Below, piece by piece: positions 21,252 through 37,744 of a stretch of DNA of 64,000 nucleotides. The position numbers were made by a program, and so were the translations under genes. Numbering within the stretch: the first letter of the stretch is position 1; the number at the start of each line of letters is the position of its first letter. Below the pieces are notes generated by a model. That model saw only the letters and a program-made list of their open reading frames with translations, was not told the DNA's origin and searched no databases. This stretch comes from an uncultured Prevotellaceae bacterium (GTDB taxonomy: Bacteria; Bacteroidota; Bacteroidia; Bacteroidales; Bacteroidaceae): NCBI GenBank assembly GCA_902776195.1, contig CACYPF010000017.1, positions 57,082-121,081 on the forward strand, given 5' to 3'.

Positions 21252-22835
21252 TTATTCAAATTCTGCCCCGTAAGGACCGTCTCCCGACTCTCCGCTATAG
21301 CCCCAGTTCTGCTCCAGGTTAGGATTCAGGATCAGTTGGTCCTGCGGGAGTGGTAACAGGTAGTTTTTCTTCGACACATTCTGTATCTTGGTGGTCTTTG
21401 TTCCCAGCGTTTCCGCATCAGTAGGGGTATTCGCCTTTACATATTTGACAAGGATATGCCAGCGGATAAGGTCGAACCAGCGCTGTCCCTCCAATACAAA
21501 CTCCAGTCGGCGCTCCTCACGCAACCGTTCACGGAACTCCTCTTTGGTCAGTCCTGCGAGGTCGAGGGCAGAGCCGTCAGATGGTGTGTTCTGCACATTC
21601 TCATACGGACTCCAGTAGGCGCGGCGGCGCACCTGGTTGATGGCATCGTAGGCAGCAGTCGTAGGACCGTTCAGTTCATTCTCTGCCTCAGCCTTGATGA
21701 GCAGCACCTCAGCATAACGAATGATGGTGGTGTTCGTTGACTGCCCTGCGGAATTACCTGCTGAGGCAGGATTGGCATAGTTAAGCGAGTCAATATACTT
21801 ACGGAAGCGGGGGATTGTGAACACGAAGTCCTCACCCGTATTCGGGTCATAGAGTCGTTTAGCCCATGAGCCGTCACGCCGCTGGTCACGAGGGTCTGTC
21901 TGCTCATAATACTTGTCGCTGGTAGCGAGGAGCACAGGCTCAGAGTTGCTCCAGTTCGTGGCGAAGGTACAGTGTCCTGACACATTACCGTTGATGGTAC
22001 GGTCGTGCTCGATGGAGAAGATATGCTCCGCACCATGTTTCTTGTCTACCGACCAGTTGTCGATGAACTTATCCAGCAGTTTGTACTTTCCGGAATTAAT
22101 CACCTTATTGGCGTTGTCGATAGCTTTCTGATAATAGGCGTTTTGGTTTGCCTTTCCCTGTTCACTACTGGTCTGCGCCCATACGAGATAGACCTTGGAG
22201 AGCAGTGCCGATGCCGCAAGACTGGATGCCTTGCTGTCGAGGGTAGTATAGTCGGCGGGCAGACCCTCAGCGGCAGTCAGGTCAGCAACAATCTGCTCAT
22301 ACACCTCATCGACGCTGTTGCGGGCAGCCCCTTCTCCCTCACTGTCATGCAGTACGATGGGTACTCCTCCGAAATAGCGTACCAAGTTGAAGTATATAAA
22401 GCCACGGAGGAAACGTGCCTCGTTGATGTAGTTCTGCTTGGACTGCTCGTCGAGCCATGACGCATCCGTCACCTTATCGATAACCACATTGGCACGGTTA
22501 ATGGCGGTATAGTGTTCCTCCCAGGCATAGCTGACGAAGACATTGGTAGGCTGGACGGCAAAGTTGCTGAGTTCACGGATATGAGCTGAGTTCGTCTGTG
22601 CTCCCGCCTTCACATAGTCAGTCTGTAAGTCGTTGATATAGATGCTCTGGTTATTGAACATACCATAGAACCCATCCACGGTAAACTCCTGATAGACACC
22701 ATTGATGGCTGTCTCTATATCCTCTTTGCTCTGATAGAAATTGTCCTTGTCGATGGAACTGATCGACTTCTGGTCGAGGTCAGCGCAACTGGTGAGCAAA
22801 AGACCTGTTGCGAGATATATTATACTTTTTCTCAT
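21252..22835 (-). CDS. SusD/RagB-family outer membrane lipoprotein
   Basis: Surface substrate-binding lid that works with SusC. Lipoprotein signal with lipobox LLTSC at residues 13-17. SusD features: INGVYQEF, EARFLRGFIYFNLVRYFGGVPIV, TPR-like helices in the middle, EVLLIKAEAENELNGP and the C-terminal LREERRLEFVLEGQRWFDLIRW. 527 aa. It starts 18 bp after the susC stop. No glycosidase is near, so the substrate is probably not a polysaccharide. Confidence 0.93.
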   Translation of the reverse strand: MRKSIIYLATGLLLTSCADLDQKSISSIDKDNFYQSKEDIETAINGVYQEFTVDGFYGMFNNQSIYINDLQTDYVKAGAQTNSAHIRELSNFAVQPTNVFVSYAWEEHYTAINRANVVIDKVTDASWLDEQSKQNYINEARFLRGFIYFNLVRYFGGVPIVLHDSEGEGAARNSVDEVYEQIVADLTAAEGLPADYTTLDSKASSLAASALLSKVYLVWAQTSSEQGKANQNAYYQKAIDNANKVINSGKYKLLDKFIDNWSVDKKHGAEHIFSIEHDRTINGNVSGHCTFATNWSNSEPVLLATSDKYYEQTDPRDQRRDGSWAKRLYDPNTGEDFVFTIPRFRKYIDSLNYANPASAGNSAGQSTNTTIIRYAEVLLIKAEAENELNGPTTAAYDAINQVRRRAYWSPYENVQNTPSDGSALDLAGLTKEEFRERLREERRLEFVLEGQRWFDLIRWHILVKYVKANTPTDAETLGTKTTKIQNVSKKNYLLPLPQDQLILNPNLEQNWGYSGESGDGPYGAEFE

Positions 22836-25800: not shown

Positions 25801-25946
25801 TCCTTACTCGACTTGGGGACGAGGGAGGCTCCTATCAGTGACTCTCCTGTACGGGCATCAGCGATATGTCCCGTGATGGTGGTCTGTGCGGCTGACGGCA
25901 ATACCGTAGCCAGCACTATTAGAAATAGTACTAATCTTGTTTTCAT
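22854..25946 (-). CDS. SusC/RagA-family TonB-dependent outer membrane transporter
   Basis: 1030-aa barrel importing a ligand captured with SusD, using TonB energy. Signal peptide (about 1-20), a carboxypeptidase-regulatory-like domain (TITGHIADARTGESLIGASL, about 22-100), a TonB box/plug (NEVVVIGYGEQKR, then SVESALQGAVAGLNV and RIRGGNSITGGNEPLYVIDG), and the barrel to the final FGFNITL. Second cistron of the operon, 20 bp after the binding-protein gene. Confidence 0.94.
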   Translation of the reverse strand: MKTRLVLFLIVLATVLPSAAQTTITGHIADARTGESLIGASLVPKSSKELGAVTDVDGNFTLVTNVELPLTLSVQYVGYRPQEVDVYDAAEPVDILLSDNASRLNEVVVIGYGEQKRLELTSAISSVGSEVLRQQNNSVESALQGAVAGLNVTQTSGQPGAASIIRIRGGNSITGGNEPLYVIDGFIVYNDPASTRTGAKTSDATLDPLAFLNPADIESIEVLKDVSATAIYGTRGANGVIIITTKKGSHGRNNISYNASFGWSTIGKKLNYLNAQQWVGLWNELYDNGEVGYRIDAPTQSYDWQDAALRTGFSQEHQLSFVGGDEISRYSISGGYKSQDGIVKGTGLKRYVGRANYERNIFPTLLVGVNASGAYNKVTGVADNSGSMFAPSPWVAAISHTPYTSIYNADGTYNYDPTPTSVDIYNGRVGNPISDLENTQAETENTRFIGTGFAEWTVIPQLKLKASLGADISNTRQSYYAPSYTTGGLANNGYASVGQTKTTTWQTEYTATYSNVFKRVHSLNALLGYTAQRTDRSSVATTSYGFSNDATGYDNLGAAATTLPSVSSHYISTLQSWIGRVNYSYDSRYNASLTLRADGSSRFADNHRWGWFPSLGLSWNIDREKWLHLGKSVDFIQLRASVGTVGNQEIGDYQFAANVVPRTVIINNQKATSYIIENKSNEDLKWETTTSYNIGLSTGFFQNRLTVTLDAYYKKTNDLLLDVPVEQVTGFSTVLRNVGSVTNKGVELEIGGVLIDNKNWKWNVNGNIAHNKNEVTSLGDSEYFLPDFASVGTLQYINPLIVKVGEPLGTFYGYRFKGIIQSDEDLSSLPAQTISTVEPGNPKFEDVNNDGVVNEQDRVVLGNIQPKFTYGFNTKVAYKNWDLFVSLSGSYGNKLFNALACRLDRGNGYYYNPLGEVANRWTVTNPSNTIQKASSATSIYADDRFVENASYLKFRNIQLGYTLPVPQITKDAKLRLYVSLQNFFTITSYSGYDPEANRNGIDETSALYQGVDYGAYPAAKTVLFGFNITL

Positions 25947-25966: not shown

Positions 25967-26860
25967 TTATTTCTGTGCGAGGTCTTGCTGCTCGGTGAGG
26001 CGCAACTGTGCCGTCACCTCTTTCTGTGAGAGCTGCAAGAGACCGTACTCATGGACGTATTTGTTGCCATCGGTCAATATCCAGCGGACAAACTGGTTCA
26101 AAATGCCGTCGTGATGGTTGTATGACAGTCCTATCTTACCCGTGGGGATCTCTGCGAACTGCTGCTGCTCCAGCAACAGGATGATGTCGTCCAGACGAGC
26201 CTCGTCGAGTATCTGCTCACCATGCTTGTCAATGTCGAGGGGCACGATGGCGAGGTCACTGCGCAACTGGCGGCTCTGCAAATCGAAGATGTTGGAGAGT
26301 GAGTTGATGGCGATACCTAACGGGTCGCGGCTCAATGCGGTATTGAGGAAACTGTCATCACCTGAAATCTTTTTACCCTTAAACGAACTTGTCTCCTGCT
26401 TGAAACTCTTGGCATAGGCTCTGGATGCCGACTGCTGACTATTGCCTGTGTAGATATGAAGCGCTTGCTCTGCCTTGCTCTCCTTCGTGTCATCGTCAAA
26501 CTCGTCCTTTACGAAGAAAAGACTATTCAGCTTCTTGGCATTCAGACGCTTGCTGCCCAGCAGCTGTGCTGCCTCCGACGATTTCGTCACCACGGGCAGT
26601 ACGGCATAGCGTGCCACGAAAACGGCATCGTCGGCTTGTTCTGTCACAAATGATATCTGATGTTCTGTGTTGGTGGCTTTCCCTGTAACAATCTGGAAAG
26701 CGGCGTCGTGGTTGATCTTGGTATACTCGGCAACCCATTTCTCTACCAATGGGCGTACAGAATGCTGTACGCGGAGGGTTACCTGCTCGTTCTGTGCTCC
26801 GGCTGACTGACTAACTTGCAGCCCTAAGAGCAATGCTATGGTGAATACTGATTTTCTCAT
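25967..26860 (-). CDS. Periplasmic PstS-like substrate-binding-fold protein
   Basis: Start chosen at 26860 (MRKSVFTIALL) because it gives a clean signal peptide ending in SAGAQN. Residues about 22-297 resemble the type 2 periplasmic binding fold of PstS or sulfate-binding proteins: VEKWVAEYTKINHDAAFQIV, FVARYAVLPVVTK, KKLNSLFF, SDDSFLNTALSRDPLGIAIN and a C-terminal FVRWILTDGNKYVHEYGLLQLS. I cannot tell the ligand; the phosphate-type Ser/Arg signature is not obvious, and no ABC permease is near. First main gene of the operon, overlapping the Met/Cys upstream ORF. Confidence 0.7.
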   Translation of the reverse strand: MRKSVFTIALLLGLQVSQSAGAQNEQVTLRVQHSVRPLVEKWVAEYTKINHDAAFQIVTGKATNTEHQISFVTEQADDAVFVARYAVLPVVTKSSEAAQLLGSKRLNAKKLNSLFFVKDEFDDDTKESKAEQALHIYTGNSQQSASRAYAKSFKQETSSFKGKKISGDDSFLNTALSRDPLGIAINSLSNIFDLQSRQLRSDLAIVPLDIDKHGEQILDEARLDDIILLLEQQQFAEIPTGKIGLSYNHHDGILNQFVRWILTDGNKYVHEYGLLQLSQKEVTAQLRLTEQQDLAQK

Positions 26861-26987
26861 GTTCTTGTCGTTCTTTATATATATTAATAATGTGTTGGTT
26901 ACTTCTCTCCTCCTTCTCATTACGCATCATCTGCATGCTGCAACAACAACAGCAACACATTCGCATGTTCATCATCATTGTTTTCAT
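26811..26987 (-). CDS. Upstream ORF with a Met/Cys-rich start (candidate sulfur-sensing leader peptide)
   Basis: First AUG of the predicted transcript, about 50 nt after the start site. It reads MKTMMMNMRMCCCCCC then SMQMMRNE; 9 Met and 6 Cys stand in the first 21 codons, the six Cys being consecutive (TGT/TGC). The frame continues for 58 codons and ends with TAG at 26811-26813, inside the binding-protein gene and out of its frame, so it overlaps that gene's start at 26860. Stalling for lack of Cys- or Met-tRNA would keep ribosomes off the overlap, while full translation would run across the main start. Poly-Cys leaders acting on sulfur genes are known in mycobacteria; the function here is inferred. 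Confidence 0.6.
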   Translation of the reverse strand: MKTMMMNMRMCCCCCCSMQMMRNEKEERSNQHIINIYKERQEHEKISIHHSIALRAAS

Positions 26988-27043: not shown

Positions 27044-27074
27044 CAAAGGTACGGCGGAATCCCCATTCCCGCAA
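27044..27074 (-). promoter_or_regulatory. Promoter of the SusCD-type uptake operon
   Basis: Minus strand: TTG (27074-27072), 20 bp, then TACCTTTG (27051-27044). The spacing and -7 sequence are identical to the promoters at 34578-34608 and 37675-37705. Leader to the main gene is about 177 nt. Confidence 0.82.
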
Positions 27075-27098
27075 TACCCTCTGCATGGCATTTTTATA

Positions 27099-27114
27099 TA
27101 CCATACGTTTGGTA
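27099..27114. promoter_or_regulatory. 16-bp dyad operator, copy 1 (candidate sulfur regulon site)
   Basis: TACCATACGTTTGGTA. Its centre is 55.5 bp upstream of the first base of TACCTTTG. It belongs to a family of three sites in this window. Confidence 0.8.
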
Positions 27115-27187
27115 TGTCCCCCTGTCGACTACAAACAATCCCTGTCTCCGTGTCTCTGTGTTTACCAAACTACTGCATGCGGGTTGC

Positions 27188-27275
27188 GAAGCCTTAGGCG
27201 CCGAGGGTCGAAGGTGCCGCCTCCGTGGGTCGAAGCCCTGGGCTTCAAAGGTCGAAGGTACGGGCTTCGTGGGGC
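27188..27275 (+). repeat. Two tandem 44-nt GC-rich repeats
   Basis: Units at 27188-27231 and 27232-27275 begin GAAGCC and share GGTCGAAGGT. They match a two-unit copy inside the U32 peptidase gene at 55093-55174. From 27276 to 27380 lie further G/C-rich pieces, including the near-repeats GGAGGCATCGGA and GGAGGTATCGGA and CCCTAAGGG palindromes. No gene is supported here. Confidence 0.75.
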
Positions 27276-27432
27276 TTGGGGATTATCCCTAAGGGTCATG
27301 GGGATAGTTCCTTTACCCCCTAAAGGATGCTTTGCGTCACCCATAGGAGGCATCGGAGTACCCCCTTAGGAGGTATCGGAACGAATGATAAACTATATCT
27401 TTGTCAAATGGATGCGTTAATCTTAATGAAAA

Positions 27433-27666
27433 TCGCAAAAACATATAACCTTATAACATGACAGGGCGCAAACCCCGATAACCAGAGGCTTTAACGCATG
27501 TTATATGTTTGCTGAACATATAACATACATATAACATACTTCTCACACAAAAGTTATATGTATGTTACATGTATGTTACATGTTTGAGCAACATGTAATA
27601 TGGCTCAATCCCTTTGTACAAGGGCATTTGAGCCACATCATGTTATAAGGTTATATGTTTTTGCGA
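27433..27666. mobile_element. 234-bp MITE-like element with 29-bp perfect terminal inverted repeats
   Basis: Left end 27433-27461 (TCGCAAAAACATATAACC...) is the exact reverse complement of 27638-27666. The interior has nested hairpins: ATGTTATATGTT with AACATATAACAT (about 27499-27529), GTTACATGTT with AACATGTAAT (about 27574-27599), and GGCTCAA..TTGAGCC enclosing CCCTTTGTACAAGGG (27602-27635). No coding sequence and no clear target duplication. It could instead be a structured regulatory or replication-related block. Confidence 0.6.
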
Positions 27667-27725
27667 ACTTTCAGCAAGAAATCGGCAAATTGCACTATCG
27701 TAGTGCATTTTCTTTACTTAATAAT

Positions 27726-27756
27726 TTGGATTATTGCCCACTTCTTATTAATTTTG
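27726..27756 (+). promoter_or_regulatory. Promoter of tcdA
   Basis: TTG at 27726-27728, 20 bp, then TAATTTTG at 27749-27756; the ATG follows 8 bp later, so the leader is very short. Confidence 0.65.
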
Positions 27757-27764
27757 CATGATCA

Positions 27765-28460
27765 ATGAAAGAGATATTCCAACGGGCAGAGATATTGCTG
27801 GGTGCTGAGGGGATGGAACGGCTCAGTGAGAAACGGGTCATCCTCTTTGGTGTCGGGGGCGTGGGCTCTTGGTGTGCCGAGGCTTTGGTGCGTACCGGAC
27901 TGAAGCATCTGACGATTGTGGACTTCGACTGCGTGGACGTGACGAATGTCAACCGCCAGTTGATGGCGACCACGAGGACGGTAGGGCAGGTGAAGGTGGA
28001 GGCACTGAAAGAACGGTTGCTTGCCATCAACCCCGATGCGGAGGTCACGGCACTGCAAAAGACGTTCACGGAGGAGACGGCAGAGGCGTTCCAGTTGGAC
28101 ACCTATGACTATATTATCGATGCCATCGACTCGCTGAAAGACAAGGCGTTACTGATAGAACTGGCGTGTCAGACAAAGGCGAGGTTCTTCTCGTCCATGG
28201 GGGCGGCTCTGAAGCTCGACCCTTCCCACATACAGGTGGCAGAGTTCTGGAAAGTGAAAGGCGACCCCTTGGCGCGGGCATTAAGAAACCGCTTCAAGAA
28301 AGAGAAGCGGTTCCCCAAACGTAAGTTCCAGTGTGTGTACTCCGACGAGTCCCCTCGTACCTCTAACCCCTCCAAAGGCTCCCTCGTACATATCACCGCC
28401 ATCTTCGGCATGACCCTTGCTGGTCTGGTGATACAAGACGCTACTGCAGAGAAGCGCTAA
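27765..28460 (+). CDS. tcdA: tRNA threonylcarbamoyladenosine dehydratase (TcdA/CsdL family)
   Basis: E1-like enzyme that cyclises t6A in ANN-decoding tRNAs. Shows the adenylation fold: LFGVGGVGSWCAEALVRTG (nucleotide loop), DFDCVDVTNVNRQL, DAIDSLKDKALL, SSMGAALKLDP and a C-terminal KFQCVYSDE. 231 aa, somewhat shorter than E. coli TcdA. Its stop overlaps the convergent JAMM peptidase stop by 4 bp. Other TcdA proteins work with the CsdA/CsdE sulfur system, which fits the neighbourhood. Confidence 0.88.
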   Translation: MKEIFQRAEILLGAEGMERLSEKRVILFGVGGVGSWCAEALVRTGLKHLTIVDFDCVDVTNVNRQLMATTRTVGQVKVEALKERLLAINPDAEVTALQKTFTEETAEAFQLDTYDYIIDAIDSLKDKALLIELACQTKARFFSSMGAALKLDPSHIQVAEFWKVKGDPLARALRNRFKKEKRFPKRKFQCVYSDESPRTSNPSKGSLVHITAIFGMTLAGLVIQDATAEKR

Positions 28461-28843
28461 AGATGCTGTTCCTTATTGATCACCTCCCCATTAAGAATCT
28501 TAAAGGAGTTGAGGTGGATGCCCTCATGTAATGAGAGGATGGCATAACGGATGGTAGGATCGTTGGCAAGTCGAAGATCCTCTTGGGAAGGACGTGAGGG
28601 AGAAGCGGGATGGCTGTGCCAGTTGGCAAGAATCCTTAGTCCCTTAGAACGTGCGTATTTCAAGGCAGCGAACTGGTCCTTAGGTGCAAAGGAGAAATGC
28701 TCTGACGAATGGTCGATATTCTCCATCCAGTAGTTTTCTGTGACGACATCATCAGCACCCAAGAGATAGCCACAGGTCTCATTGGGGGCATCTTTCTGAG
28801 CCTGTGCTATCATCTCGTCAATGACATTTTGGTTGATTCTCAT
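28457..28843 (-). CDS. JAMM/M67-family metallopeptidase
   Basis: Zinc peptidase of the Mov34/MPN type. The JAMM residues are all present: Glu22 (ETCGYLLG), His76 and His78 (HSHP), Ser86 and Asp89 (HxHx7SxxD). 128 aa, single domain like mycobacterial Mec and pseudomonad QbsD, which trim or release sulfur-carrier proteins of the ThiS fold. It is the last gene of the run and 4 bp after the E1-like gene; a ThiS-like protein with an extra C-terminal residue is two genes upstream. I infer that it removes that residue or frees cysteine from the carrier. Confidence 0.88.
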   Translation of the reverse strand: MRINQNVIDEMIAQAQKDAPNETCGYLLGADDVVTENYWMENIDHSSEHFSFAPKDQFAALKYARSKGLRILANWHSHPASPSRPSQEDLRLANDPTIRYAILSLHEGIHLNSFKILNGEVINKEQHL

Positions 28844-28847
28844 CGTT

Positions 28848-29654
28848 TTAATGTTTTAAGTCACATGCAGCCTGTTCATAGTCAATCAACTTCGTGATGG
28901 TTGGGTGTTCACCACAGATGGCACACGAAGGACGTTGTTTGACAGGGATGGTACGGAACAGCATTGTCTTGGCATCGAAAGTCAGCAGACGGTTAGTCAA
29001 CAACTCACCAACGCCCGTGAAAAATTTCAAGGTCTCCGCAGCCTGGATAGTACCTAACATACCGGCGATGGCTCCTAAGACGCCAGCCTGTGAACAGGTG
29101 GGTACTGCTCCAGGGGGTGGCGGCTCTTTGAAGAAACAGCGGTAGCAGGCTGTGCCAGGCAGATGTGTAAACGTCTGTCCATTAAAACGCAGGATGCCTC
29201 CATGCGAGAAGGGCTTGCCAGCCATCACACAGGCATCGTTGATGAGAAACTTCACAGGAAAGTTGTCTGTGCCATCAACGATGAAGTCATATTCCTTGAT
29301 AATATCCAGTGCATTGCCAGACCATAGGAACTCATGGAAGGTATCCACCTTCACATCAGGGTTGATGGCAAGGATTTTCTCCTTGGCACTATCTACTTTA
29401 GGTACTCCCACGTCCTTGGTAAAATGAATGACTTGGCGTTGTAAGTTGGGGAGGTCGACCACATCGGCATCAATAATGCCGATACGACCAATACCTGCTG
29501 CCGCAAGATAAAGGGAGACGGGGGCTCCCAATCCGCCAGCACCCACTACGAGCACCTTAGCATTGAGGATCTTCTCCTGTCCCTCCACGCCGACATCCTG
29601 TAAAAGGATATGTCGTGAGTAACGTTGTATCTGCTCTTCAGTAAAATCGTACAT
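28848..29654 (-). CDS. E1-like adenylyltransferase (HesA/MoeB/ThiF family)
   Basis: Activates the C-terminus of a ThiS/MoaD-type carrier by adenylation so that it can accept sulfur. ATP loop VVGAGGLGAPVSLYLAAAGIG, IDADVVDLPNLQRQVIH, the active-site region DGTDNFPVKFLINDACV, and two zinc CxxC pairs (CYRC and CAIC). 268 aa, no rhodanese domain, so the sulfur donor must be another protein; the cysteine desulfurase or TusA/DsrE encoded beside it are candidates. It starts 30 bp after the carrier stop. Confidence 0.92.
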   Translation of the reverse strand: MYDFTEEQIQRYSRHILLQDVGVEGQEKILNAKVLVVGAGGLGAPVSLYLAAAGIGRIGIIDADVVDLPNLQRQVIHFTKDVGVPKVDSAKEKILAINPDVKVDTFHEFLWSGNALDIIKEYDFIVDGTDNFPVKFLINDACVMAGKPFSHGGILRFNGQTFTHLPGTACYRCFFKEPPPPGAVPTCSQAGVLGAIAGMLGTIQAAETLKFFTGVGELLTNRLLTFDAKTMLFRTIPVKQRPSCAICGEHPTITKLIDYEQAACDLKH

Positions 29655-29684
29655 AACACAAAACTATGAACTCTAAACTATGAA

Positions 29685-29897
29685 CTAAACACCCCCTCCT
29701 CCCATGAAGTACAAGAAGTCGACAGTGTCACCTTCCTTGATCTGTATACCATCCCATTCGGAGCGGTCAGCGAAATCCTCATTCACCTGTACACTGACCA
29801 TTTCTGGCTGCTGTACGTCATTCTGTTTGATTAACTCGGTCAGGGTGAGTGGAAGTATCACTTCCTGAGCCTCACCATTTACTATGATCTTTGCCAT
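29685..29897 (-). CDS. ThiS/MoaD-like sulfur carrier protein ending in GGGGV
   Basis: 70-aa beta-grasp protein (MAKIIVNGEAQEV, SVQVNEDF, GDTVDFLYFMGGGGV). Active carriers end in Gly-Gly so that the terminal carboxylate can become a thiocarboxylate. Here a Val follows the glycines, so a protease step is needed to expose the end; a JAMM peptidase is in the same gene run. ThiS itself usually ends in GG, which argues for a CysO- or QbsE-like role in cysteine synthesis rather than thiamine; no other thi genes are near. Confidence 0.88.
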   Translation of the reverse strand: MAKIIVNGEAQEVILPLTLTELIKQNDVQQPEMVSVQVNEDFADRSEWDGIQIKEGDTVDFLYFMGGGGV

Positions 29898-29919
29898 TTT
29901 TACTCTGATACCTTAATTT

Positions 29920-31431
29920 TTACTTGCTGTTTACTATTTTCCGTAGGGCGATAACGAGTTTATCGACATCTTCACGGGTGTTATAGAGGGCGAAGGTGGG
30001 TCGTACAGACATCTCATGTCCCAAGGCACGAAGGGCAGGTTGGGCACAGTGGTGACCCGCACGGACGGCGATACCCTCTTTGTCAAGCAATGTCCCTACC
30101 TCAGGAACAGGAATATTGTCAAGGTAGAAACTGACGACAGAGACACGATGCTTGGGATTGCCGATAAGGTGTAACCCCGGTACCTGCGCCAGTTGCTCAC
30201 GGGCATACTCCGTGAGTTGATGCTCATGATGCTCGATATTGCGTATGCCGATACGGCTCACGTAGTCGAGGGCGGCACCCAGTCCGATGGCATCAGCCAC
30301 ATTAGGCGTACCAGCCTCATAACGTGCCGGTGCCTGATTGTATTCTGTATGCTCTATCGTCACGTCCTTGATCATGTTACCACCGCCTTGCCAGGGCTGT
30401 AGTTTGTTGAGCCACTCCTGACTGATATAGACGGCGCCAATACCATTGGGACCGTAAATCTTATGTCCTGAGAATACGAAGAAATCGGCTCCCAGAGCCT
30501 GTACATCGACAGGTGTATGGGCAATCGATTGGGCACCATCAATGAGGACAGGCACCTGGTGGGAGTGGGCGATATCGATGATACGCTGCACATCATTGAT
30601 TGTTCCGAATGTGTTATTGACATGTCCGACTGAGACCACTCGTGTACGGGGTGTGATGAGACGCTCCAGTTCCGAGAGGATGAGGTCTCCGTTTTTGTCG
30701 GTAGGGATAGCAAACAAGTCTGCGCCCCGCTCTTGAGCGATACGCTGCCAAGGTACGATGTTGGCATGGTGGTCTAGTTCTGAGACAATGACGTTGTCAC
30801 CAGCGCCAAGATATTGTCTGCCGAAAGTCTGTGCCACAAGGTTGATGCCCTCTGTGGTACCACGCACGAAGACGATATTATCGGAAGATGGTGCATTGAT
30901 GAAGTTGGCAATCTTCTGGCGTGCCTCTTCGTAGGCATCTGTGGCACGTGCCGCCAGTGTGTGGGCACCACGGTGGATATTCGAATTATAGTTACGGTAA
31001 TAATCCGAGATCTTATCAATTACCACGTTGGGCTTCTGTGTCGTGGCACCATTGTCAAGCCATACAAGATCATGCCCGTTCACCTTCTGCCGCAGAATGG
31101 GGAAGTCTTTCTTGATCTGGTCGGAGTCCAGCGTGTCGGCTTCCTCATAGTGCAATTGGCGCAACTTCTGGGTCTCAGGGATTCCGATGCCGAACCCATT
31201 GTCGCCGGGCAACGCCTCATGGGTGGGATGCGATGTTGTCGCACCTCCCTCAGCAGGACGCTCCATCCCGAAGGGCAGTTCCAGCGCATTGAGGTTCAAC
31301 TGCTCGTCAGGCAAGATAGCCTGACGTTCAGCACGTACCTCGTCTGGGCAGAAATCCTGAGCCACACGCCGTAGGGCTTCTAAGACCAAGGTGTCTTGTG
31401 CGGAATAGGGATTATTAAATGTCTCTATCAT
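29920..31431 (-). CDS. SufS-type cysteine desulfurase with encapsulin-cargo N-terminal extension
   Basis: PLP enzyme taking sulfur from L-cysteine. The catalytic part (about 106-503) has the PLP Lys324 in SGHKIYGPNG and the catalytic Cys462 in RAGHHCAQP. Residues 1-105 are an added, Pro/Gly-rich and probably disordered stretch (LPFGMERPAEGGATTSHP), not found in ordinary SufS. Family 2 encapsulin cargo desulfurases carry such an extension for loading into the shell. The shell gene is 8 bp upstream in the same operon. The enzyme should fill the compartment with sulfur from cysteine. Confidence 0.92.
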   Translation of the reverse strand: MIETFNNPYSAQDTLVLEALRRVAQDFCPDEVRAERQAILPDEQLNLNALELPFGMERPAEGGATTSHPTHEALPGDNGFGIGIPETQKLRQLHYEEADTLDSDQIKKDFPILRQKVNGHDLVWLDNGATTQKPNVVIDKISDYYRNYNSNIHRGAHTLAARATDAYEEARQKIANFINAPSSDNIVFVRGTTEGINLVAQTFGRQYLGAGDNVIVSELDHHANIVPWQRIAQERGADLFAIPTDKNGDLILSELERLITPRTRVVSVGHVNNTFGTINDVQRIIDIAHSHQVPVLIDGAQSIAHTPVDVQALGADFFVFSGHKIYGPNGIGAVYISQEWLNKLQPWQGGGNMIKDVTIEHTEYNQAPARYEAGTPNVADAIGLGAALDYVSRIGIRNIEHHEHQLTEYAREQLAQVPGLHLIGNPKHRVSVVSFYLDNIPVPEVGTLLDKEGIAVRAGHHCAQPALRALGHEMSVRPTFALYNTREDVDKLVIALRKIVNSK

Positions 31432-31439
31432 TCTTTTAT

Positions 31440-32879
31440 CTATTTCTCTACTTTATTACGATGCTGGTAGTCGTGGTAATAGCCTACCTCTACATTCTCA
31501 AGGACAGCAATGGCATCGTCTGTCAATGCCGCAAGACTGAAGTACTTGGTCAACAGATAGGAGGCGACACCAAACTTGTCGAGACCCATCAGACGGGCAC
31601 TGAGCGACGGGGCAATCTCACCAGGAATACCACTCTGGTGCAGACCAACCACACCTTGGTTCTTCTCACCAGTACGGACGAGGATGATCTTCGTTGTTCC
31701 CACACCACGACCTGTCAGGAACTGTCCTTCTACCTCCACCTTGTCAGAAGGTATCAAGGGAACCCCACGCCAAAGAATGACTTTCGTTCCGAAGAGATCA
31801 GTAGTTACTGGTGGTACTCCACGCCATGTACACTCACGCTCAAAGGCGGCAATCGCACGAGGATGGGCTACGAAGAAAGCAGGCTCCTTCCATACCAATG
31901 ACAGCAATTCGTCGAGGTCATCAGGTGTCGGTGCTCCATAGCGGGTCGTGATACGATGGGCAGGACTGACGGAGGCAAGCAGTCCGAACTGGTTGTTGTT
32001 GATGAGTTCCCATTCCTGACGCTCTTTGATACTCTCTATAGAGAGGCGCAGTTGTTCTTCGAGTTGGTTGTAAGGATTATTATAGAGATCGCTCACACGA
32101 GTGTGGACACGTACTACAGTCTGTAAGGTGTTGAGACTGTATTCCGTCGGATTTTCCTCGTAGTCGATATAGGTCTCTGGGATGATATTATCCTCCTTGT
32201 GACCGCTTACGAGGTCGATATGTTTCTCACCATGATCATTGACAGTTGCTTTCAGACGTAACTGCTTGTCGACAGCCTTCTGGAAAGTCTGACGGAAGTC
32301 TGGAACCTCCTTGATGAATTTCTCTAATTCGGAGAGTTTCAGGGAGAGGAACACGGAGGGTGTGACAGCACGGACGCTGACTGTGGAGGCTGCGTCATTC
32401 AGAAGGTCTGCCTCACCGAAAAACTCACCGTCACCCAGCAGGGCGATACGCAACTCCTCTCCATGAGGACCTTTGTTGATGACCTCCGCCTGCCCACTTG
32501 CAACGATGAAGAACTTCTGTTTGTCTTTGCCTTCTTTGACAAAGAGGTTACCCAGTGATACCTCGACAGTCTCGAAGGAACTTGCCAGACGAGTCACAAT
32601 CTCATCATCGAAAGCAGAGAACAAAGGAATTTGTTTCAGACTATTTGCGGTAAACGAGGGAACCCCATTCAGGTACTCAATATTCAGACGCTCCGTCTTC
32701 TTGAGTTCTACCTTGGTGCGGTTGACGCGGTAAGTACCGCCACTGACCTGAACCCATGGAAGGAGTTTCAGGAGAAGTCTTGGAGTGATACTACCCATCT
32801 GAGGGGCAGTCTTAGTGGTGGTCGCCAGTTTTCTGGCGGTGGCAGTGGTCACACTGCGCTGAAGATTTGAATCTGCCAT
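31440..32879 (-). CDS. Family 2 encapsulin shell protein with inserted cyclic-nucleotide-binding-like domain
   Basis: Self-assembling HK97-fold protein forming a protein nanocompartment. N-terminal arm about 1-75 (basic, MGSITPRLLLKLLPWVQVSGGTY), inserted cNMP-type beta domain about 85-200, shell domains about 210-479 with ending GYYHDYQHRNKVEK. The insert puts it with family 2B. In the phosphate cassette (GEFFGEADLLNDAASTVSVRA, 151-171) the Glu is kept but the Arg that binds cAMP phosphate in CRP is replaced by Ser/Thr, so normal cAMP binding is doubtful. It is followed by the desulfurase gene after 8 bp. In other bacteria such shells store elemental sulfur (Acinetobacter) or respond to sulfur starvation (SrpI). 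Confidence 0.93.
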   Translation of the reverse strand: MADSNLQRSVTTATARKLATTTKTAPQMGSITPRLLLKLLPWVQVSGGTYRVNRTKVELKKTERLNIEYLNGVPSFTANSLKQIPLFSAFDDEIVTRLASSFETVEVSLGNLFVKEGKDKQKFFIVASGQAEVINKGPHGEELRIALLGDGEFFGEADLLNDAASTVSVRAVTPSVFLSLKLSELEKFIKEVPDFRQTFQKAVDKQLRLKATVNDHGEKHIDLVSGHKEDNIIPETYIDYEENPTEYSLNTLQTVVRVHTRVSDLYNNPYNQLEEQLRLSIESIKERQEWELINNNQFGLLASVSPAHRITTRYGAPTPDDLDELLSLVWKEPAFFVAHPRAIAAFERECTWRGVPPVTTDLFGTKVILWRGVPLIPSDKVEVEGQFLTGRGVGTTKIILVRTGEKNQGVVGLHQSGIPGEIAPSLSARLMGLDKFGVASYLLTKYFSLAALTDDAIAVLENVEVGYYHDYQHRNKVEK

Positions 32880-32892
32880 AGTTTAGTCTTTT

Positions 32893-33117
32893 TTATTTCT
32901 TGATAATTACTTTATGTTTTGTTCCCTCTACATGCTCTACAGAGAGCACCTCATAGCCTTGATCTACCGCATTGCGGGGCACATTGTCCAGTGGCTCTCC
33001 TTCTGAGAGCAGAACCTCCAGAATGTCGCCTGCCTGTAACTTAGCCAGTTCGATCTTGGTCTTGACGAAGGTCATCGGGCAATGTTCCTTCGTGATGTCT
33101 AATGTCTTTGTTGCCAT
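32893..33117 (-). CDS. TusA-like sulfur-relay protein
   Basis: 74-aa carrier with one active Cys13. The family motif CPxP is CPMT here, as in the wider TusA/YedF group. Beta strands around ILEVLLSEG and HKVIIKK are normal. It probably passes persulfide sulfur between the desulfurase, DsrE-like protein and acceptors. It starts 10 bp after the DsrE-like stop and ends 13 bp before the shell gene. Confidence 0.88.
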   Translation of the reverse strand: MATKTLDITKEHCPMTFVKTKIELAKLQAGDILEVLLSEGEPLDNVPRNAVDQGYEVLSVEHVEGTKHKVIIKK

Positions 33118-33127
33118 ATCTTCAATT

Positions 33128-33607
33128 TTAAATAAACATTGTCCGTCCTCCCTCTGAGAGTTGCAGGAAGGTTGCTACCCCCAGCACGTCCTTGACTTCA
33201 GGGATGAAGTCTTCTTTCTTCAATCCCAGCACGTGCATTGCCATCTCGCAAGCATATAAGTTGACACCCAATACTTTTGCCGCCTCAACCAATTCTTCTA
33301 AGGTTGCCACATTATTCTTACGCATCAGATATCGGAATATCTTAGGACCAGCACCACAGAAGTTGAAACGACTCGTGGGGGTCGACTTCAATCCTCCCAT
33401 CATGAAACCGAAAATCTTTGTCAACCAGTTAGCGCCAAGGAATGCCCGTCCCTGTTTCTTCTTGATGGCATCCAGCCCCCAGAAAGTAAAGAAGATGTTA
33501 ACCTCGTATCCAACAGCAGCGGCACCCGTAGCAAGGGTGAAGACTGCTGTCAACTTGTCGAAATCACCGCTGAAGGCGATGAGGCTTAGTTTCTTAGTAT
33601 CGCTCAT
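33128..33607 (-). CDS. DsrE/DsrF-like sulfur-transfer protein
   Basis: 159 aa. DsrE-type alpha/beta fold: LSLIAFSGDFDKLTAVFTLATGAAAVGYEVNIFFTFWGL, and an active-site-like Cys in YACEMAMHVLG. The middle (LTKIFGFMMGGLK) is hydrophobic and resembles the DsrE2 subgroup, which binds and moves persulfides with TusA. It lies 2 bp after cysK and 10 bp before the TusA gene, a typical DsrE-TusA pairing. Confidence 0.88.
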   Translation of the reverse strand: MSDTKKLSLIAFSGDFDKLTAVFTLATGAAAVGYEVNIFFTFWGLDAIKKKQGRAFLGANWLTKIFGFMMGGLKSTPTSRFNFCGAGPKIFRYLMRKNNVATLEELVEAAKVLGVNLYACEMAMHVLGLKKEDFIPEVKDVLGVATFLQLSEGGRTMFI

Positions 33608-33609
33608 CG

Positions 33610-34545
33610 TTATTCGAAATTATAAATAGGTGTACTCAGATACCTCTCACCGGTATCTGGTAAAATGACCACAATATTCTTTTTCTCGTTCTCTGGACGC
33701 TTCGCAACCCGGATAGCAGCAGCGACGGCGGCAGCCGATGACACGCCAGCCAGAACGCCATCCGTACGTGCAAGTTGTCGTCCACGATCGTATGCCTCCT
33801 CATCCTTGATACGGATAATCTCGTCGTAGACGGTTGTGTTCAGTACCTTGGGGACGAAGCCTGCACCAATACCTTGCAGTTTGTGAGGACCTGGCTTCCC
33901 TCCACTCAATACGGGAGAACTGTCGGGCTCCACGGCAATTACTTGAATATGGGGGTTATACTTCTTCAATACCTCTCCGACACCAGTGATGGTGCCACCA
34001 GTATCAATGCCTGCTACCAAAATGTCTACCTTCCCGTCGGTGTCACGCCATATTTCCTCTGCTGTCGTCTTGCGATGGATTTCTGCGTTTGCTTTGTTCT
34101 CAAACTGTTGGGGGATATAGGCGTTACCAATCTCTTGGGCTAACTCCTGTGCCTTACGGATAGCACCAGCCATTCCCTCATAGGCGGGAGTCAGTACCAG
34201 TTCTGCACCCAGAGCCTTGAGTAGTTTGCGACGTTCCAGCGACATCGCCTCTGGCATGGTGAGTATCAGGCGATAGCCACGTATGGCACTTGCCAAAGCA
34301 AGCCCAATACCCGTATTGCCACTGGTGGGTTCAATAATCGTGGTGTCTTTATTGATCAGACCACGACGCTCCGCGTCATTGAGCATGGCGAAACCCACAC
34401 GATCCTTCACGCTTCGTGCAGGGTTAAACAACTCCAATTTCACGATGATACGGGCTTTCAACCGTTCTTTCTTCTCTGTACGACTTAGTTCCAGTAACGG
34501 AGTGTTACCGAGCAAGTCAATTAAGTTGTGGGCGATGTTTGCCAT
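33610..34545 (-). CDS. cysK: Cysteine synthase (O-acetylserine sulfhydrylase)
   Basis: PLP enzyme making cysteine from O-acetylserine and sulfide. PLP Lys47 in [10 protein letters not shown], phosphate loop [22 protein letters not shown] and the C-terminal [13 protein letters not shown]. 311 aa, full length. First gene of a seven-gene run (cysK, dsrE, tusA, shell, desulfurase, carrier, E1, then JAMM) with its own promoter and dyad operator. Confidence 0.95.
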
Positions 34546-34577
34546 ATTCTTGATGTTTTTGTGTAATTATCTGTCTG

Positions 34578-34608
34578 CAAAGGTAGTGGCTTTTAGCGTA
34601 CCGTACAA
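34578..34608 (-). promoter_or_regulatory. Promoter of the cysK-encapsulin operon
   Basis: Minus strand: TTG (34608-34606), 20 bp, then TACCTTTG (34585-34578), 33 bp before the cysK start. Confidence 0.85.
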
Positions 34609-34631
34609 TCGCACTCTTGTGGCATTTCATA

Positions 34632-34647
34632 TACCTAACGTTTGGTA
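34632..34647. promoter_or_regulatory. 16-bp dyad operator, copy 2
   Basis: TACCTAACGTTTGGTA, flanked by CA and TATG so that the dyad extends to CATATACC..GGTATATG. Centre 54.5 bp upstream of TACCTTTG. It overlaps the stop codon and last codons of the malY-like gene. Confidence 0.85.
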
Positions 34648-35810
34648 TATGCTGTCTCTAACTGCTGCAAAGCCTGCAGAAGGATACATCTGGGCGTTCC
34701 GACGTTCATGCGCATAAAGCCCTCACCGCCTGGTCCGAACATCTCTCCGTCATTCAATGCGAGGTGTGCTTTGTTGACGAACAAGTCGATGAGTTGTTCG
34801 TGGCTTAATCCCAACTCACGGCAGTCGAGCCATACCAAAAAAGATGCTTGTGGTCGAAGCGGTTTTATCTTTGGCAAATGTTCCTTACAATACTCCTCCA
34901 CGAAACGGATATTCCCTTCCACGTAATGAAGCATCTCCTTGCGCCATGCCTCACCTTGTTGATAGGCGGCGATGGTGGCAATAGGGGAGAACAGGGGAGG
35001 ATCGTTCAACTCATTCGCCTCCAGCCATGTATAGAAACGACGGCGGATGGTGTCGTTGGGTACGATGGCATAACTGCTGACGATACCTGCGATATTAAAT
35101 GTCTTCGAAGGCGCTCCGAAGGTGATGCTGCACTGTGCTGCCTCCTCACTGACGGTGGCAAAGGGAACGTGGCGGTTGTCGAAGAGTGCCATGTCACTAT
35201 GTATCTCGTCCGACAGGACGAGGATGCCGTGCTGATAGCAGAAATGAGCTAACCGCCGGAGTGTCTCCTCTTTCCAACAGATGCCTGCGGGATTGTGAGG
35301 GTTGCTGAGAATCAGTATCTTGCACTGTTCGTCAGTGATCTGTTCCAACTGCTCAAAGTCCATGTCGTAAGTCCCGTCAGGCAGTCGCTTCAACGGATTA
35401 TACACCACCTTGCGCCCGTTACCTTGTGGGGTCAGCCGGAAAGGATGATAGACAGGAGGTTGGATGATCACCTTATCACCTTCCTTCGAGAACACATTAA
35501 CAGCCATCCCAATCCCTTTCACAATGCCGGGAATGTAGGTGAGCCACTTCCGTCGTACGTCCCACAGGTGATGGTCATGAACCCATCGGATGATGGTGTC
35601 CCACAGTTCCTCGGGTACCACCGTATAGCCGAATAAAGAGTGGTCGAGACGTTGCCGTAGCGCCTCTGTGATAAACGGCGGTGTCTCGAAGTCCATATCC
35701 GCCACCCACAGCGGGAGCAGGTCACTGCGTCCGTATCGTTCCAGCAGTACCCCGTGTTTCAGGTCACCGCTGCCACGACGGTCTATGATCTTGTCAAAAC
35801 TATAAGTCAT
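34635..35810 (-). CDS. MalY/PatB-type cystathionine beta-lyase (class I/II aminotransferase fold)
   Basis: PLP lyase giving homocysteine from cystathionine, or sulfide from cysteine. Features: DFETPPFITEAL at the N-terminus, NPHNPAG (Asn for PLP), SDEIHSDM and PLP Lys236 in GAPSKTFNIAG. 391 aa. Its start overlaps the end of the transsulfuration enzyme by 11 bp, so the two are translationally coupled. Confidence 0.88.
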   Translation of the reverse strand: MTYSFDKIIDRRGSGDLKHGVLLERYGRSDLLPLWVADMDFETPPFITEALRQRLDHSLFGYTVVPEELWDTIIRWVHDHHLWDVRRKWLTYIPGIVKGIGMAVNVFSKEGDKVIIQPPVYHPFRLTPQGNGRKVVYNPLKRLPDGTYDMDFEQLEQITDEQCKILILSNPHNPAGICWKEETLRRLAHFCYQHGILVLSDEIHSDMALFDNRHVPFATVSEEAAQCSITFGAPSKTFNIAGIVSSYAIVPNDTIRRRFYTWLEANELNDPPLFSPIATIAAYQQGEAWRKEMLHYVEGNIRFVEEYCKEHLPKIKPLRPQASFLVWLDCRELGLSHEQLIDLFVNKAHLALNDGEMFGPGGEGFMRMNVGTPRCILLQALQQLETAYTKR

Positions 35811-36981
35811 CTCCTAATGCTTGTTGGATATCCTCTAATAAATCATCTACTGCCTCCAGCCCTACTGACAGGCGGATGGTTGTCTGTCGCACATCCATCT
35901 TCTTCAACTGCTCCTCGGGGAAGAGTCCGAAGATGGTACTTGCCGGATGAATCGCCAGCGTGCGGTTGTCGAAGAGATTGGTAGCACGGTGGATGAGTAT
36001 CAGGCGATTGAGGAAACGGAAACACTCCTCCTTGCTCCTCAGGTCGATGGTCAGCATCGCCCCTGCCGTCTTCCCAAACTGACGCTGGGCGAGTTCGTGG
36101 TATGGGTTGTCCTCCAGTCCGATGTAGTTGACCTGCCGGATCGCACCCTGCTCCCGCAATGCCTTCGCCAACTGGAGGGCGTTGGCAGCCTGTCGCTGGT
36201 AGCGGGCATCGAGTGTCTCCAGTCCTAAGGTCTGCAGGTAGGCAGCCTGGGGTGTCATATAGGCACCGAGGTTAAACAGCAACTCATACTTGATGCGCTG
36301 GTTGATGAGCGGGAAGGTACCATAGTCGATGACCAGTCCGCCCAGGGAGGTACCGCCTCCCGAGAGATATTTCGTGCTGGACACCACTTCGATGTCCACG
36401 CCCAGTCCTTTCAGATGTGTCTCCGTGAAAGGAATCACCGTAGAGTCGGCAATCAAGGGGACTCCTCGCTGGTGGGCGATATCCGCAAGGGCGCGAAGGT
36501 CGGCGACCTCCAACTGCGGGTTGGTGACCACCTCCAGGAACACACAGCAGGTGTTCTCGTCGATGGCATCAGCCACCGCCTGCAGGTTGGTGAGGTCACG
36601 CAACCGCGGCTTTACGCCAAAACGCAACAGCGTGTTGCTGACCAAGGCGAGTGTATTGCCGAAGAGGTGGGTGGATGTCACGATATTCTTCCCTTGTGCA
36701 CTCACCGCAAGCAGGGTGTTACTGATAGCCGCCATCCCCGAGTTGAACGCCGTCACATGGGCTGCGTCCGTCAACAGCCTTACCCTCTGTTCGAGGTTCG
36801 TCACGGTAGGGTTTTCCACCCGGGCATAGTCGGGTGCCTTGACACGGTTGCAGAAAGCATCCGCCATCAGTTGGGCATCCTCAAACTCAAAGGCAACGTT
36901 ATGGTATACTGGTACGGCGAGCGAGCCATAGGCATCGGGGCGTACATAAGGGGTGTCAATAGCAATGGTCTGTTTCTTCAT
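35800..36981 (-). CDS. Transsulfuration-family PLP enzyme (cystathionine gamma-synthase / O-acetylhomoserine sulfhydrylase type)
   Basis: Joins sulfide or cysteine to activated homoserine. PLP Lys204 in VVSSTKYLSGGG, Asp in IADSTVIPF, and the tyrosine/arginine motif DYARVENPTV. 393 aa, full length. MetA in this window carries the acetyl-type residue, so the likely substrate is O-acetylhomoserine. Gene order regulator, this gene, malY-like suggests a single operon making homocysteine; exact specificity cannot be read from sequence. Confidence 0.88.
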   Translation of the reverse strand: MKKQTIAIDTPYVRPDAYGSLAVPVYHNVAFEFEDAQLMADAFCNRVKAPDYARVENPTVTNLEQRVRLLTDAAHVTAFNSGMAAISNTLLAVSAQGKNIVTSTHLFGNTLALVSNTLLRFGVKPRLRDLTNLQAVADAIDENTCCVFLEVVTNPQLEVADLRALADIAHQRGVPLIADSTVIPFTETHLKGLGVDIEVVSSTKYLSGGGTSLGGLVIDYGTFPLINQRIKYELLFNLGAYMTPQAAYLQTLGLETLDARYQRQAANALQLAKALREQGAIRQVNYIGLEDNPYHELAQRQFGKTAGAMLTIDLRSKEECFRFLNRLILIHRATNLFDNRTLAIHPASTIFGLFPEEQLKKMDVRQTTIRLSVGLEAVDDLLEDIQQALGDDL

Positions 36982-37002
36982 CTCTCAATAATCATCTTTA
37001 AA

Positions 37003-37647
37003 CTAAATATAAAACTCCGACGGGTCAACCAGTCCGGCACGGAAAGCGTATTTCACGGCTTCGTGGGCGGTGTTCACCTGTAGTTTTCTGAAAATATTCT
37101 TCTTATGGGTATTCACCGTATGGATACTGGAGTAACGCTCGTAGGCAATCTCCTTGGTGGTCTTGCCCTGTGCTACCCCGCGCAGGATCTCTATCTCTGT
37201 GTGTGTCAGAACTTTCGAATGCAACTCCTCGTCAGCCTGCTGACAGATCAATACCTCTGCGGCACGCTGACAGAGATAGCGCTCGCCACGCATCGCATAC
37301 TCGATGGCATGATGGAACAACTTGAGAGGGGAGTCCTTGAAAACGATACTCACATGACGGACGGTATAGACCAGTTTGCGCATCAACGACACCGTCAGGT
37401 CGTCGCTTGTCATGATCCACAATGCTTTGGGGAACCGCTCAATGATAATCAGCAACTGCTCCTCGTCCTGTATATTAAATAAGGTATAGTCGATGATGAC
37501 AATACTCTTCTCGTCAGCCTGCAGCTGTTTGAGCAGTTGCTCCTTGTCCGTGACATGGTGGAGGGTCGCACTCTCATGCTCACGGATCAGCGTCTTGAGG
37601 GCATACGCCGTCAGTTCTTGGTTGTCTGCTAAGATAAAATTCACCAT
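37003..37647 (-). CDS. LuxR/NarL-family response regulator (candidate regulator of sulfur genes)
   Basis: Receiver domain about 1-120 with phospho-acceptor Asp53 (IIDYTL), Thr80 and Lys104; one of the usual acidic pair is replaced (ILADNQ). LuxR-type helix-turn-helix about 147-205 (LTHTEIEILRGVAQGKTTKEIAYERYSS). 214 aa. No histidine kinase is adjacent. It opens the operon with the transsulfuration genes (21 bp gap) and has a dyad operator upstream, so it probably controls itself and the other copies. That link is inference. Confidence 0.88.
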   Translation of the reverse strand: MVNFILADNQELTAYALKTLIREHESATLHHVTDKEQLLKQLQADEKSIVIIDYTLFNIQDEEQLLIIIERFPKALWIMTSDDLTVSLMRKLVYTVRHVSIVFKDSPLKLFHHAIEYAMRGERYLCQRAAEVLICQQADEELHSKVLTHTEIEILRGVAQGKTTKEIAYERYSSIHTVNTHKKNIFRKLQVNTAHEAVKYAFRAGLVDPSEFYI

Positions 37648-37674
37648 ACTTTTGTCTCATTTAGTTTCTGAGTG

Positions 37675-37705
37675 CAAAGGTATGGTGATTCGGGATGGTA
37701 TGCAA
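37675..37705 (-). promoter_or_regulatory. Promoter of the response regulator / transsulfuration operon
   Basis: Minus strand: TTG (37705-37703), 20 bp, then TACCTTTG (37682-37675), with the regulator start about 28 bp downstream. Confidence 0.85.
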
Positions 37706-37728
37706 TACCGCTTTTCGGTTATTCTGCC

Positions 37729-37744
37729 TACCATACGTTAGGTA
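37729..37744. promoter_or_regulatory. 16-bp dyad operator, copy 3
   Basis: TACCATACGTTAGGTA. Centre 54.5 bp upstream of TACCTTTG. It lies in the gap between the tex stop at 37752 and the regulator. Confidence 0.83.

Follow-up and report, generated by a model that had tools for sequence, protein, structure and literature searches.

Among the described regulators of cysteine metabolism, CysB is a LysR-type and CymR an Rrf2-type protein. Cysteine and homocysteine synthesis through protein thiocarboxylates is represented by the CysO/Mec system of Mycobacterium and the HcyS/HcyD system of Wolinella. Prevotella and Bacteroides, which are abundant in the gut and the rumen, handle cysteine and sulfide, and among the open-access papers listed, judged by titles and the opening lines of abstracts, no sulfur or cysteine regulator of the kind considered here was described for Prevotella, Bacteroides or Bacteroidetes. 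Here, we analyze a 64,000-nucleotide stretch of DNA (the window) from an uncultured Prevotellaceae bacterium (assembly GCA_902776195.1, contig CACYPF010000017.1, positions 57,082–121,081), in which three promoters carry a candidate operator made up of two 16-bp dyads, and a NarL/LuxR-type regulator is encoded behind one of them. Positions below are those of the window, and all of its features that we describe lie on the minus strand.

For the DNA element, the comparison is with NarL of Escherichia coli, whose heptamer consensus is TACYYMT (PMC4886647). A published engineered NarL 7-2-7 site (narG -89/-89) reads TACCCCTAAAGGGGTA, i.e., TACC-N8-GGTA; NarL activates from 7-2-7 sites located at -40 to -49 at napF and at -38 to -47 at yeaR, and it represses at some promoters (PMC4549865). 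For the genes, sulfur starvation induces SrpI, a family 2A encapsulin found with a cysteine desulfurase in Synechococcus elongatus (PMC8049743), and for family 2B encapsulins that carry a desulfurase as cargo, 199 operons are known (PMC8346489). The open-access literature yielded nothing that combines encapsulin, cysteine desulfurase and Prevotella, and a search on thiocarboxylate pathways gave one paper, an unrelated one. For B. thetaiotaomicron, the main text of a regulon paper (PMC3878776) mentions neither LuxR, NarL, cysteine, methionine nor sulfur; a table in an iron-limitation study gives BT2387, an O-acetylhomoserine sulfhydrylase, with printed values of 2.0 and 0.09, and the word LuxR is absent from the main text of that study (PMC10434189).

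A Candidate Operator of Two Dyads

According to our analysis, the dyads are probably the operators of a sulfur-limitation regulon under the regulator encoded at 37003..37647, which would activate through both dyads; we assign this reading a probability of roughly 0.8. Judged by comparison of sequences across genomes, the arrangement of two dyads at a fixed distance from the promoter, the link to sulfur genes and the co-occurrence with the regulator are real and conserved, and the dyads are likely bound by the 37003 protein.

The first dyad is present in three copies, numbered 1 to 3, at 27099..27114 (TACCAAACGTATGGTA), 34632..34647 (TACCAAACGTTAGGTA) and 37729..37744 (TACCTAACGTATGGTA), as read on the minus strand. 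All of them match TACCWWACGTTWGGTA with 0 mismatches and have exactly the sequences given in a first-pass annotation of this DNA. They share a 7-2-7 inverted layout that starts with TACC and ends with GGTA, as in TACCCCTAAAGGGGTA, with different inner bases. The distance from the dyad centre to the box TACCTTTG, which had been put at 54.5–55.5 bp, measures 55.5 bp in copy 1 and 54.5 bp in copies 2 and 3. The TTG reported 20 bp ahead of this box was likewise found at all three promoters, with 20 bases between: 27044..27074 (TTG 27072–27074, box 27044–27051), 34578..34608 (TTG 34606–34608, box 34578–34585) and 37675..37705 (TTG 37703–37705, box 37675–37682).

At up to three mismatches to the dyad pattern, the window contained 10 strand-matches, compared with a mean of 1.7 and a maximum of 6 in 100 dinucleotide shuffles. 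Across the whole genome (2,966,070 bases, estimated to be 93.55% complete), TACCWWACGTWWGGTA at no more than one mismatch occurred only at the three window places, copy 1 among them, and its reversed control gave 0 matches. A relaxed pattern of dyad and box with a gap of 42–50 found four sites in this genome, namely the three in the window and one that precedes metY and a second cysK. We rejected a chance or scattered motif on the basis of the three genome copies, the four dyad-and-box sites in 2.97 Mb and the absence of phasing in the control dyads described below.

A second, degenerate 16-bp dyad, overlooked in the first-pass annotation, lies downstream of the first one at all three promoters: 27075..27090 (TGCCATGCAGAGGGTA; linker of 8 nt), 34609..34624 (TGCCACAAGAGTGCGA; linker of 7 nt) and 37706..37721 (TAACCGAAAAGCGGTA; linker of 7 nt). 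The distance of 55.5 bp in copy 1 is due to its linker of 8 rather than 7 nt.

Conservation of the Architecture and Its Link to Sulfur Genes

A set of loci was chosen by the regulator alone. A profile search with aligned regulators gave at least 509 confirmed relatives, the best 80 of which were taken as loci (1.35 Mb); they come mainly from Prevotella, Xylanibacter and uncultured relatives, and their regulators are 52–88% identical. These loci contained 100 TACC-N8-GGTA dyads, with a gap to TAnnTTTG of 46 nt in 70 and of 45 nt in 11, whereas two control dyads, CCAT-N8-ATGG (30 occurrences) and ATCC-N8-GGAT (10 occurrences), lacked a box at all gaps between 10 and 120. The full site was found in 51 of the 80 loci, with 89 sites in total.

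In the 70 sites with a gap of 46 nt, positions outside the search pattern proved to be conserved (T in 70/70, C in 68/70, G in 66/70 and A in 70/70), so that near-invariant T, R, M and C are followed by eight bases and then by G, N, K and A, with TTG directly after in most. In 76 of the 89 sites, the second dyad conforms to the pattern TRMC-N8-GNKA, compared with 51 of 17,800 shuffled linkers. Total gaps of 45, 46 and 47 in the fitting sites correspond to linkers of 6, 7 and 8 nt; therefore, the second dyad always lies 23 nt from the box (76/76), abutting the -33 TTG, and only the linker between the dyads varies. The earlier picture of a single-dyad operator is thus replaced by an operator that usually has two dyads (76/89 sites and all window copies), and the first dyad alone is, on this evidence, one half of a conserved two-part candidate docking site.

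Matches on both strands occur for 13 of the 76 distinct first dyads, most of which separate a thiF operon from one of the dsrE2 or cysK type. In L093 and L109, the second direction faces unrelated genes and may be a chance match. One first dyad is common to two divergent promoters of the thiF and dsrE2 types in L081:13776-13899, L082:10175-10298 and L187:6283-6406.

Genes in these loci were labelled after their homologues among the window and metY proteins, in a few cases at low identity (e.g., ThiF at 35% in L140). The first gene after the 89 sites codes for a sulfur enzyme or carrier in 52 cases (CysK 25, ThiF 15, DsrE2 10, encapsulin 2), for the regulator in 19 and for SBP (8; our working label for a 317-aa window protein) or SusC (2) in 10, and is other, unlabelled or absent in 8. 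By family, neither SBP nor SusC counts as a sulfur gene, and the strict sulfur count is therefore 52/89; a dyad without link to sulfur genes, the case that the first-pass annotation had named as speaking against its proposal, is contradicted by this count. ThiF as the first gene mostly lies 230–310 nt downstream of the site, which leaves space for a small carrier gene. Among the heads of transcription units, 58 of 61 with a site were labelled, versus 141 of 529 without one. When the regulator, SBP and SDF heads are set aside, heads with a site comprise 38 sulfur and 3 other genes and heads without a site 92 and 388 (p about 7e-22, a value weakened by the relatedness of the genomes, which makes such p values not independent tests). 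In L072 and L084, metY stands just before the regulator with no full site in front of it, and a separate cysK there has a site.

The Regulator and Its Co-occurrence with the Site

For the NarL-type regulator placed behind copy 3 by the first-pass annotation, family searches support the C-terminal part. The protein encoded at 37003..37647, our proposed dyad binder, has a C-terminal LuxR/GerE helix-turn-helix (HTH; PF00196, E 1.5e-15, 57 bits, cut-off 23.5) and a receiver-like N-terminal region, for which Pfam gave no receiver match at 0.001. Its best solved relative is VraR, aligned over regulator residues 1–207 (E 1.8e-13). In an alignment of 47 rows, in which one gene is counted twice, D8, D53 and K104 of the receiver do not vary (47/47), the first acidic position is Ala in all 47, and the HTH recognition region is nearly invariant. 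Of the 152 Pfam families in 117 regulator-neighbour proteins, the 25 commonest include no kinase family.

The thresholds for the regulator were set at E 1e-20 or better within the genus and 1e-35 or better in other genera. Among 298 genomes of the genus, 170 have both regulator and site, 19 the regulator only, 25 the site only and 84 neither (odds ratio 30); in other words, the site was found in 170 of 189 regulator-bearing genomes and in 25 of 109 without the regulator. In 243 genomes from other genera of the family, the respective numbers are 53, 21, 26 and 143. A second search of 13 of the 25 site-only genomes, using the regulator profile and a threshold of 1e-8, gave no match in one genome, long matches in two (G078, 1.5e-21; G061, 3.0e-17, with a stop) and matches confined to the HTH region in the remaining ones. 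Some sites therefore exist without a detectable close regulator, and some of the sites in regulator-less genomes look real.

These site-only genomes bear on the question of which protein binds. The operator and the sulfur regulon could be real with another factor, for example one of the Lrp/AsnC type or an unlinked regulator, bound to the dyads, and the LuxR-type gene could be a mere member of the regulon. Sites without the regulator family, in 25 of 109 genomes and among them in G046, fit such a scheme, and so do the Lrp/AsnC-type genes found in 5 of the 117 scanned regulator neighbours. We nevertheless regard it as improbable: site and regulator co-occur both within the genus and in other genera, the site has the layout of a NarL site, the recognition region is nearly invariant, and the half-sites differ between regulator groups, with WAA half-sites in 4/90 cases in genomes that have only a distant regulator versus 24/98 in genomes with a window-type regulator (a rough grouping, and among the matches listed). 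Binding by the 37003 protein is thus our preferred reading.

Distribution in Relatives and a Second Regulator

A scan of related genomes and of the genes downstream, proposed in the first-pass annotation, turned out favourably. The exact dyad pattern was present in 31 of 299 same-genus genomes, and its reversed form gave matches in about 6. In the loci of these relatives, the distance from the dyad centre to TAnnTTTG was exactly 54.5 bp in 25 of 29 and 53.5 bp in one; the other three (L007, L019 and L025) had no such box at that place. A relaxed pattern (TACC-N8-GGTA, then 44–48 nt, then TAnnTTTG) was found in 195 of 298 same-genus genomes and, across the family, in 90 of 261 genomes, spread over 20 of 30 genera. 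In 20 loci, mostly from other genera, the site precedes metY, cysK, thiouridylase-like (by eye), regulator, thiF- or dsrE2-type or SBP/SusCD-type genes, as well as unlabelled genes (e.g., in L176, L185 and L188). On this pattern evidence, many Prevotella and some of their relatives have the site as a mark of their cysteine and methionine genes, and the predicted regulon is wider than the window.

In the group taken for Bacteroides, the gap between dyad and box is mostly 45. In Bacteroides-like genomes, the site stands before metY (L173, L177 and L179) or before a thiouridylase-like gene (L172 and L178; MnmA-like by eye), and a regulator homologue of 37–40% identity lies nearby in L172, L173, L177 and L179. 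In L074:905-8875 and L075:1530-9428, a phosphate-type porin, a PBP-type binding protein, two permeases, an ABC ATPase and the regulator occur together, with the site before the ATPase (families scanned in L075 only); we take a further gene clustered with them to be cysN-like, and the cluster is perhaps, by its gene content, a Pst-like transporter used for sulfate.

By homology, a second paralogous regulator exists: in addition to the window regulator, the same genome encodes a 44%-identical paralogue on another contig (G000:C19), and four other matches reach at most 39%. No dyad was found in the 19 kb around this paralogue. A glycosidase-like open reading frame (ORF) adjoins it, and a histidine-kinase-like ORF lies about 8 kb away (L193:8-763), both recognized by eye. 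The group of distant regulators is defined by a best identity to the window regulator of roughly 43–51%; the grouping is rough, and the group with both types is approximate. Genomes with only a distant regulator have mainly TACCAC and TACCAT half-sites. All 20 hand-picked strong-dyad sites (19 from distant-regulator genomes and one from G046) stand in front of cysK or metY. Between the site and cysK of L204, metY was matched only as a 56-aa piece (L204:5669-5836); judging from this match, metY may be degraded there.

Taken together, these data allow a broader reading, which we propose tentatively and consider somewhat less likely to be right than wrong. The Bacteroidaceae would possess an orphan, kinase-less NarL-type regulator as the counterpart of CysB and CymR, possibly sensing a sulfur metabolite through its altered receiver and acting on paired dyads, the distal one of which could serve two divergent promoters. 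Two paralogues would be split by half-site, with WAA-type sites for cysteine, storage and uptake genes and TACCAC-type sites for an older metY-cysK target.

Proposed Mechanism and Alternatives

In the mechanism that we propose, one regulator dimer would sit on the weak second dyad, abutting the -33 element in a fixed register and placed to touch RNA polymerase, while another dimer on the strong first dyad, 22–24 bp upstream from centre to centre, would stabilize or recruit it. With the transcription start taken to be roughly 12–14 nt downstream of the first base of the -7 box, the estimated positions are near -44 for the second dyad and near -67 for the first. Under shortage of sulfur amino acids, the bound regulator would activate its own operon (C-S lyase and transsulfuration-type enzymes), the cysK-dsrE2-encapsulin-cysteine desulfurase-ThiS/ThiF/JAB operon and the outer-membrane SusCD uptake operon, and the metY site would perhaps be controlled by the 44%-identical paralogue. 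Overall, the regulon would cover sulfur uptake, storage, and cysteine and methionine synthesis. We infer direct binding, a positive and not a negative effect on transcription, what the uptake operon takes up, and the signal; the latter would be sulfur limitation, because of the target genes and because sulfur starvation induces a related encapsulin (PMC8049743).

The same regulator could bind the sites as a repressor that keeps the operons off when sulfur is sufficient. A protein on the second dyad, which abuts the -33 element, could block polymerase, and NarL itself represses at some promoters (PMC4549865). However, the two dyads are located on the upstream side of the -33 TTG, the second one rigidly phased and the first flexible by 1 nt either way, as would be expected for contact with polymerase; the logo of the 70 gap-46 sites reveals no third dyad over the -7 box; and NarL activates from its 7-2-7 sites at napF and yeaR. 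Repression is in our opinion unlikely, to about the same degree as binding by another factor, and activation by the 37003 regulator remains preferred.

It is very improbable that the similarity reflects no more than a longer form of the housekeeping promoter, or a family of repeats lying near sulfur genes by chance, and a plain promoter repeat was rejected. Promoters of these bacteria are ordinarily built as TTG-N20-TAnnTTTG, and in the 70 gap-46 sites some of the spacer is conserved as well, but dyad and box occur together only four times in 2.97 Mb, the two control dyads show no such phasing, and 3 of 61 heads with a site are unlabelled versus 388 of 529 without one.

Several observations weigh against a sulfur regulon under this regulator. 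The full site is missing in the stretch examined from 29 of the 80 regulator loci, and 13 of the 89 sites do not fit the pattern of the second dyad. Heads without a site include 46 labelled as regulator, 34 as metY and 20 as encapsulin; none of the 34 metY-labelled heads in the 80 loci carries a site, and the encapsulin gene is usually located inside an operon, which bears on the 20. Nineteen of 189 regulator genomes lack the pattern, and 25 of 109 regulator-less genomes have it; in G046 (99% complete), a full site precedes cysK, and the regulator matches are confined to the HTH region (best 8.7e-13). The reversed control of the relaxed pattern matched in about 49 of 298 same-genus and about 47 of 261 family genomes, and lone matches in distant genera can therefore be due to chance. 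Finally, the resemblance to NarL sites claimed in the first-pass annotation holds for the 7-2-7 layout TACC-N8-GGTA and fails for the heptamer: strict identity with TACYYMT was rejected, as positions 5–7 are mostly A, A/T and A (70 sites).

Operons of the Window

Copy 1 is followed by the 317-aa protein labelled SBP (25967..26920), homologues of which follow sites in relatives and which matched no family in Pfam or NCBIfam scans. Next come a SusC-like TonB-dependent receptor (22854..25946; Pfam), a SusD-like protein (21252..22835; Pfam), a URO-D-fold, MtaA/CmuA-like protein (20172..21215; Pfam, with NCBIfam below the cut-off) and an SDF-family sodium symporter (18947..20146; Pfam, with only general symporter models in NCBIfam, below the cut-off). 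The URO-D-fold protein of this SusCD operon has an apparent signal peptide by eye.

The operon behind copy 2 starts with a CysK-type cysteine synthase (33610..34545; Pfam PALP family, CysK by comparison rather than by a specific model), followed by a DsrE2-like sulfur carrier (33128..33607; Pfam, with NCBIfam below the cut-off) and a 74-aa ORF (32893..33117) that we take to be TusA-like. The family 2 encapsulin shell with a cNMP-binding domain (31440..32879; PF00027) scores best with the NCBIfam 2B model (NF041163, 571.2 bits, cut-off 400), and the 2A model is also above its cut-off (NF041162, 429.8 of 380). The adjoining SufS-type cysteine desulfurase (29920..31431; TIGR01979 above the cut-off), with an N-terminal region of ~100 residues, is likely the encapsulin cargo; it scores 703.7 with the cargo model NF041166, below the model's cut-off of 800. 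The operon continues with a 70-aa ThiS-family sulfur carrier (29685..29897; ORF and Pfam), a ThiF/MoeB E1-like adenylyltransferase (28848..29654; Pfam and NCBIfam) and a JAB-domain protein (28457..28843; Pfam). The carrier ends in GGGGV beside a JAB protein, which suggests that its last residue is trimmed before use.

Behind copy 3, the regulator gene is followed by genes for a Cys/Met-metabolism pyridoxal phosphate (PLP) enzyme (35800..36981; Pfam, 25 NCBIfam models listed with none at the cut-off) and a PatB-family C-S lyase (34635..35810; NCBIfam TIGR04350 above the cut-off). The Tex gene ends 7 bp before the first dyad of this copy. The first dyad of copy 2 covers the last codons and the stop codon of the PatB-type gene; L076 has no PatB-type gene at that place, and the site there overlaps the end of the Cys/Met PLP gene.

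The sites had been described as preceding a SusCD uptake, a cysK-encapsulin and a regulator-transsulfuration operon. The family scans agree with this gene content, and two of the three are sulfur-gene operons by their predicted products; for the SusCD operon, the link to sulfur comes only from its site and its neighbours.

Overall, now that a precise operator is available together with a named candidate protein and the target operons, the question of sulfur control can be tested directly. The architecture rule (two dyads and 23 nt to TAnnTTTG) provides a means of reading regulon members off genomes, and the sulfur encapsulin and the SusCD uptake system are tied to one proposed control circuit.

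Comparison with Known Systems

The proposed system resembles the E. coli NarL/FixJ system in the GerE HTH, the VraR match over residues 1–207 and the 16-bp TACC-N8-GGTA inverted site, and the estimated position of the proximal site is compatible with activation, as at the NarL sites of napF and yeaR. Unlike NarL, its half-site is mostly TACC-A-A/T-A, two tandem dyads occur at near-fixed spacing, and the genes concern sulfur and not nitrate. It also departs from NarL/FixJ in the Ala at the first acidic receiver position (47/47) and in having no kinase among the 25 commonest neighbour families.

As in the SrpI family 2A and the family 2B desulfurase systems, the encapsulin shell adjoins a cysteine desulfurase and has a link to sulfur. 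In contrast to SrpI, the shell scores best as family 2B and has a cNMP domain, and the operon differs from both in the addition of CysK, DsrE2, ThiS, ThiF and JAB, together with a candidate regulator and operator. The gene content of a ThiS-like carrier, an E1-like enzyme, a JAB protein and sulfhydrylases recalls CysO/Mec and HcyS/HcyD, whereas the predicted carrier considered here ends in GGGGV and is joined with encapsulin and DsrE2.

With CysB and CymR, the system shares an apparent control of cysteine synthesis, uptake and sulfur genes. It differs from them in its unrelated protein family, its different operator and the inclusion of the encapsulin and SusCD uptake among the candidate targets.

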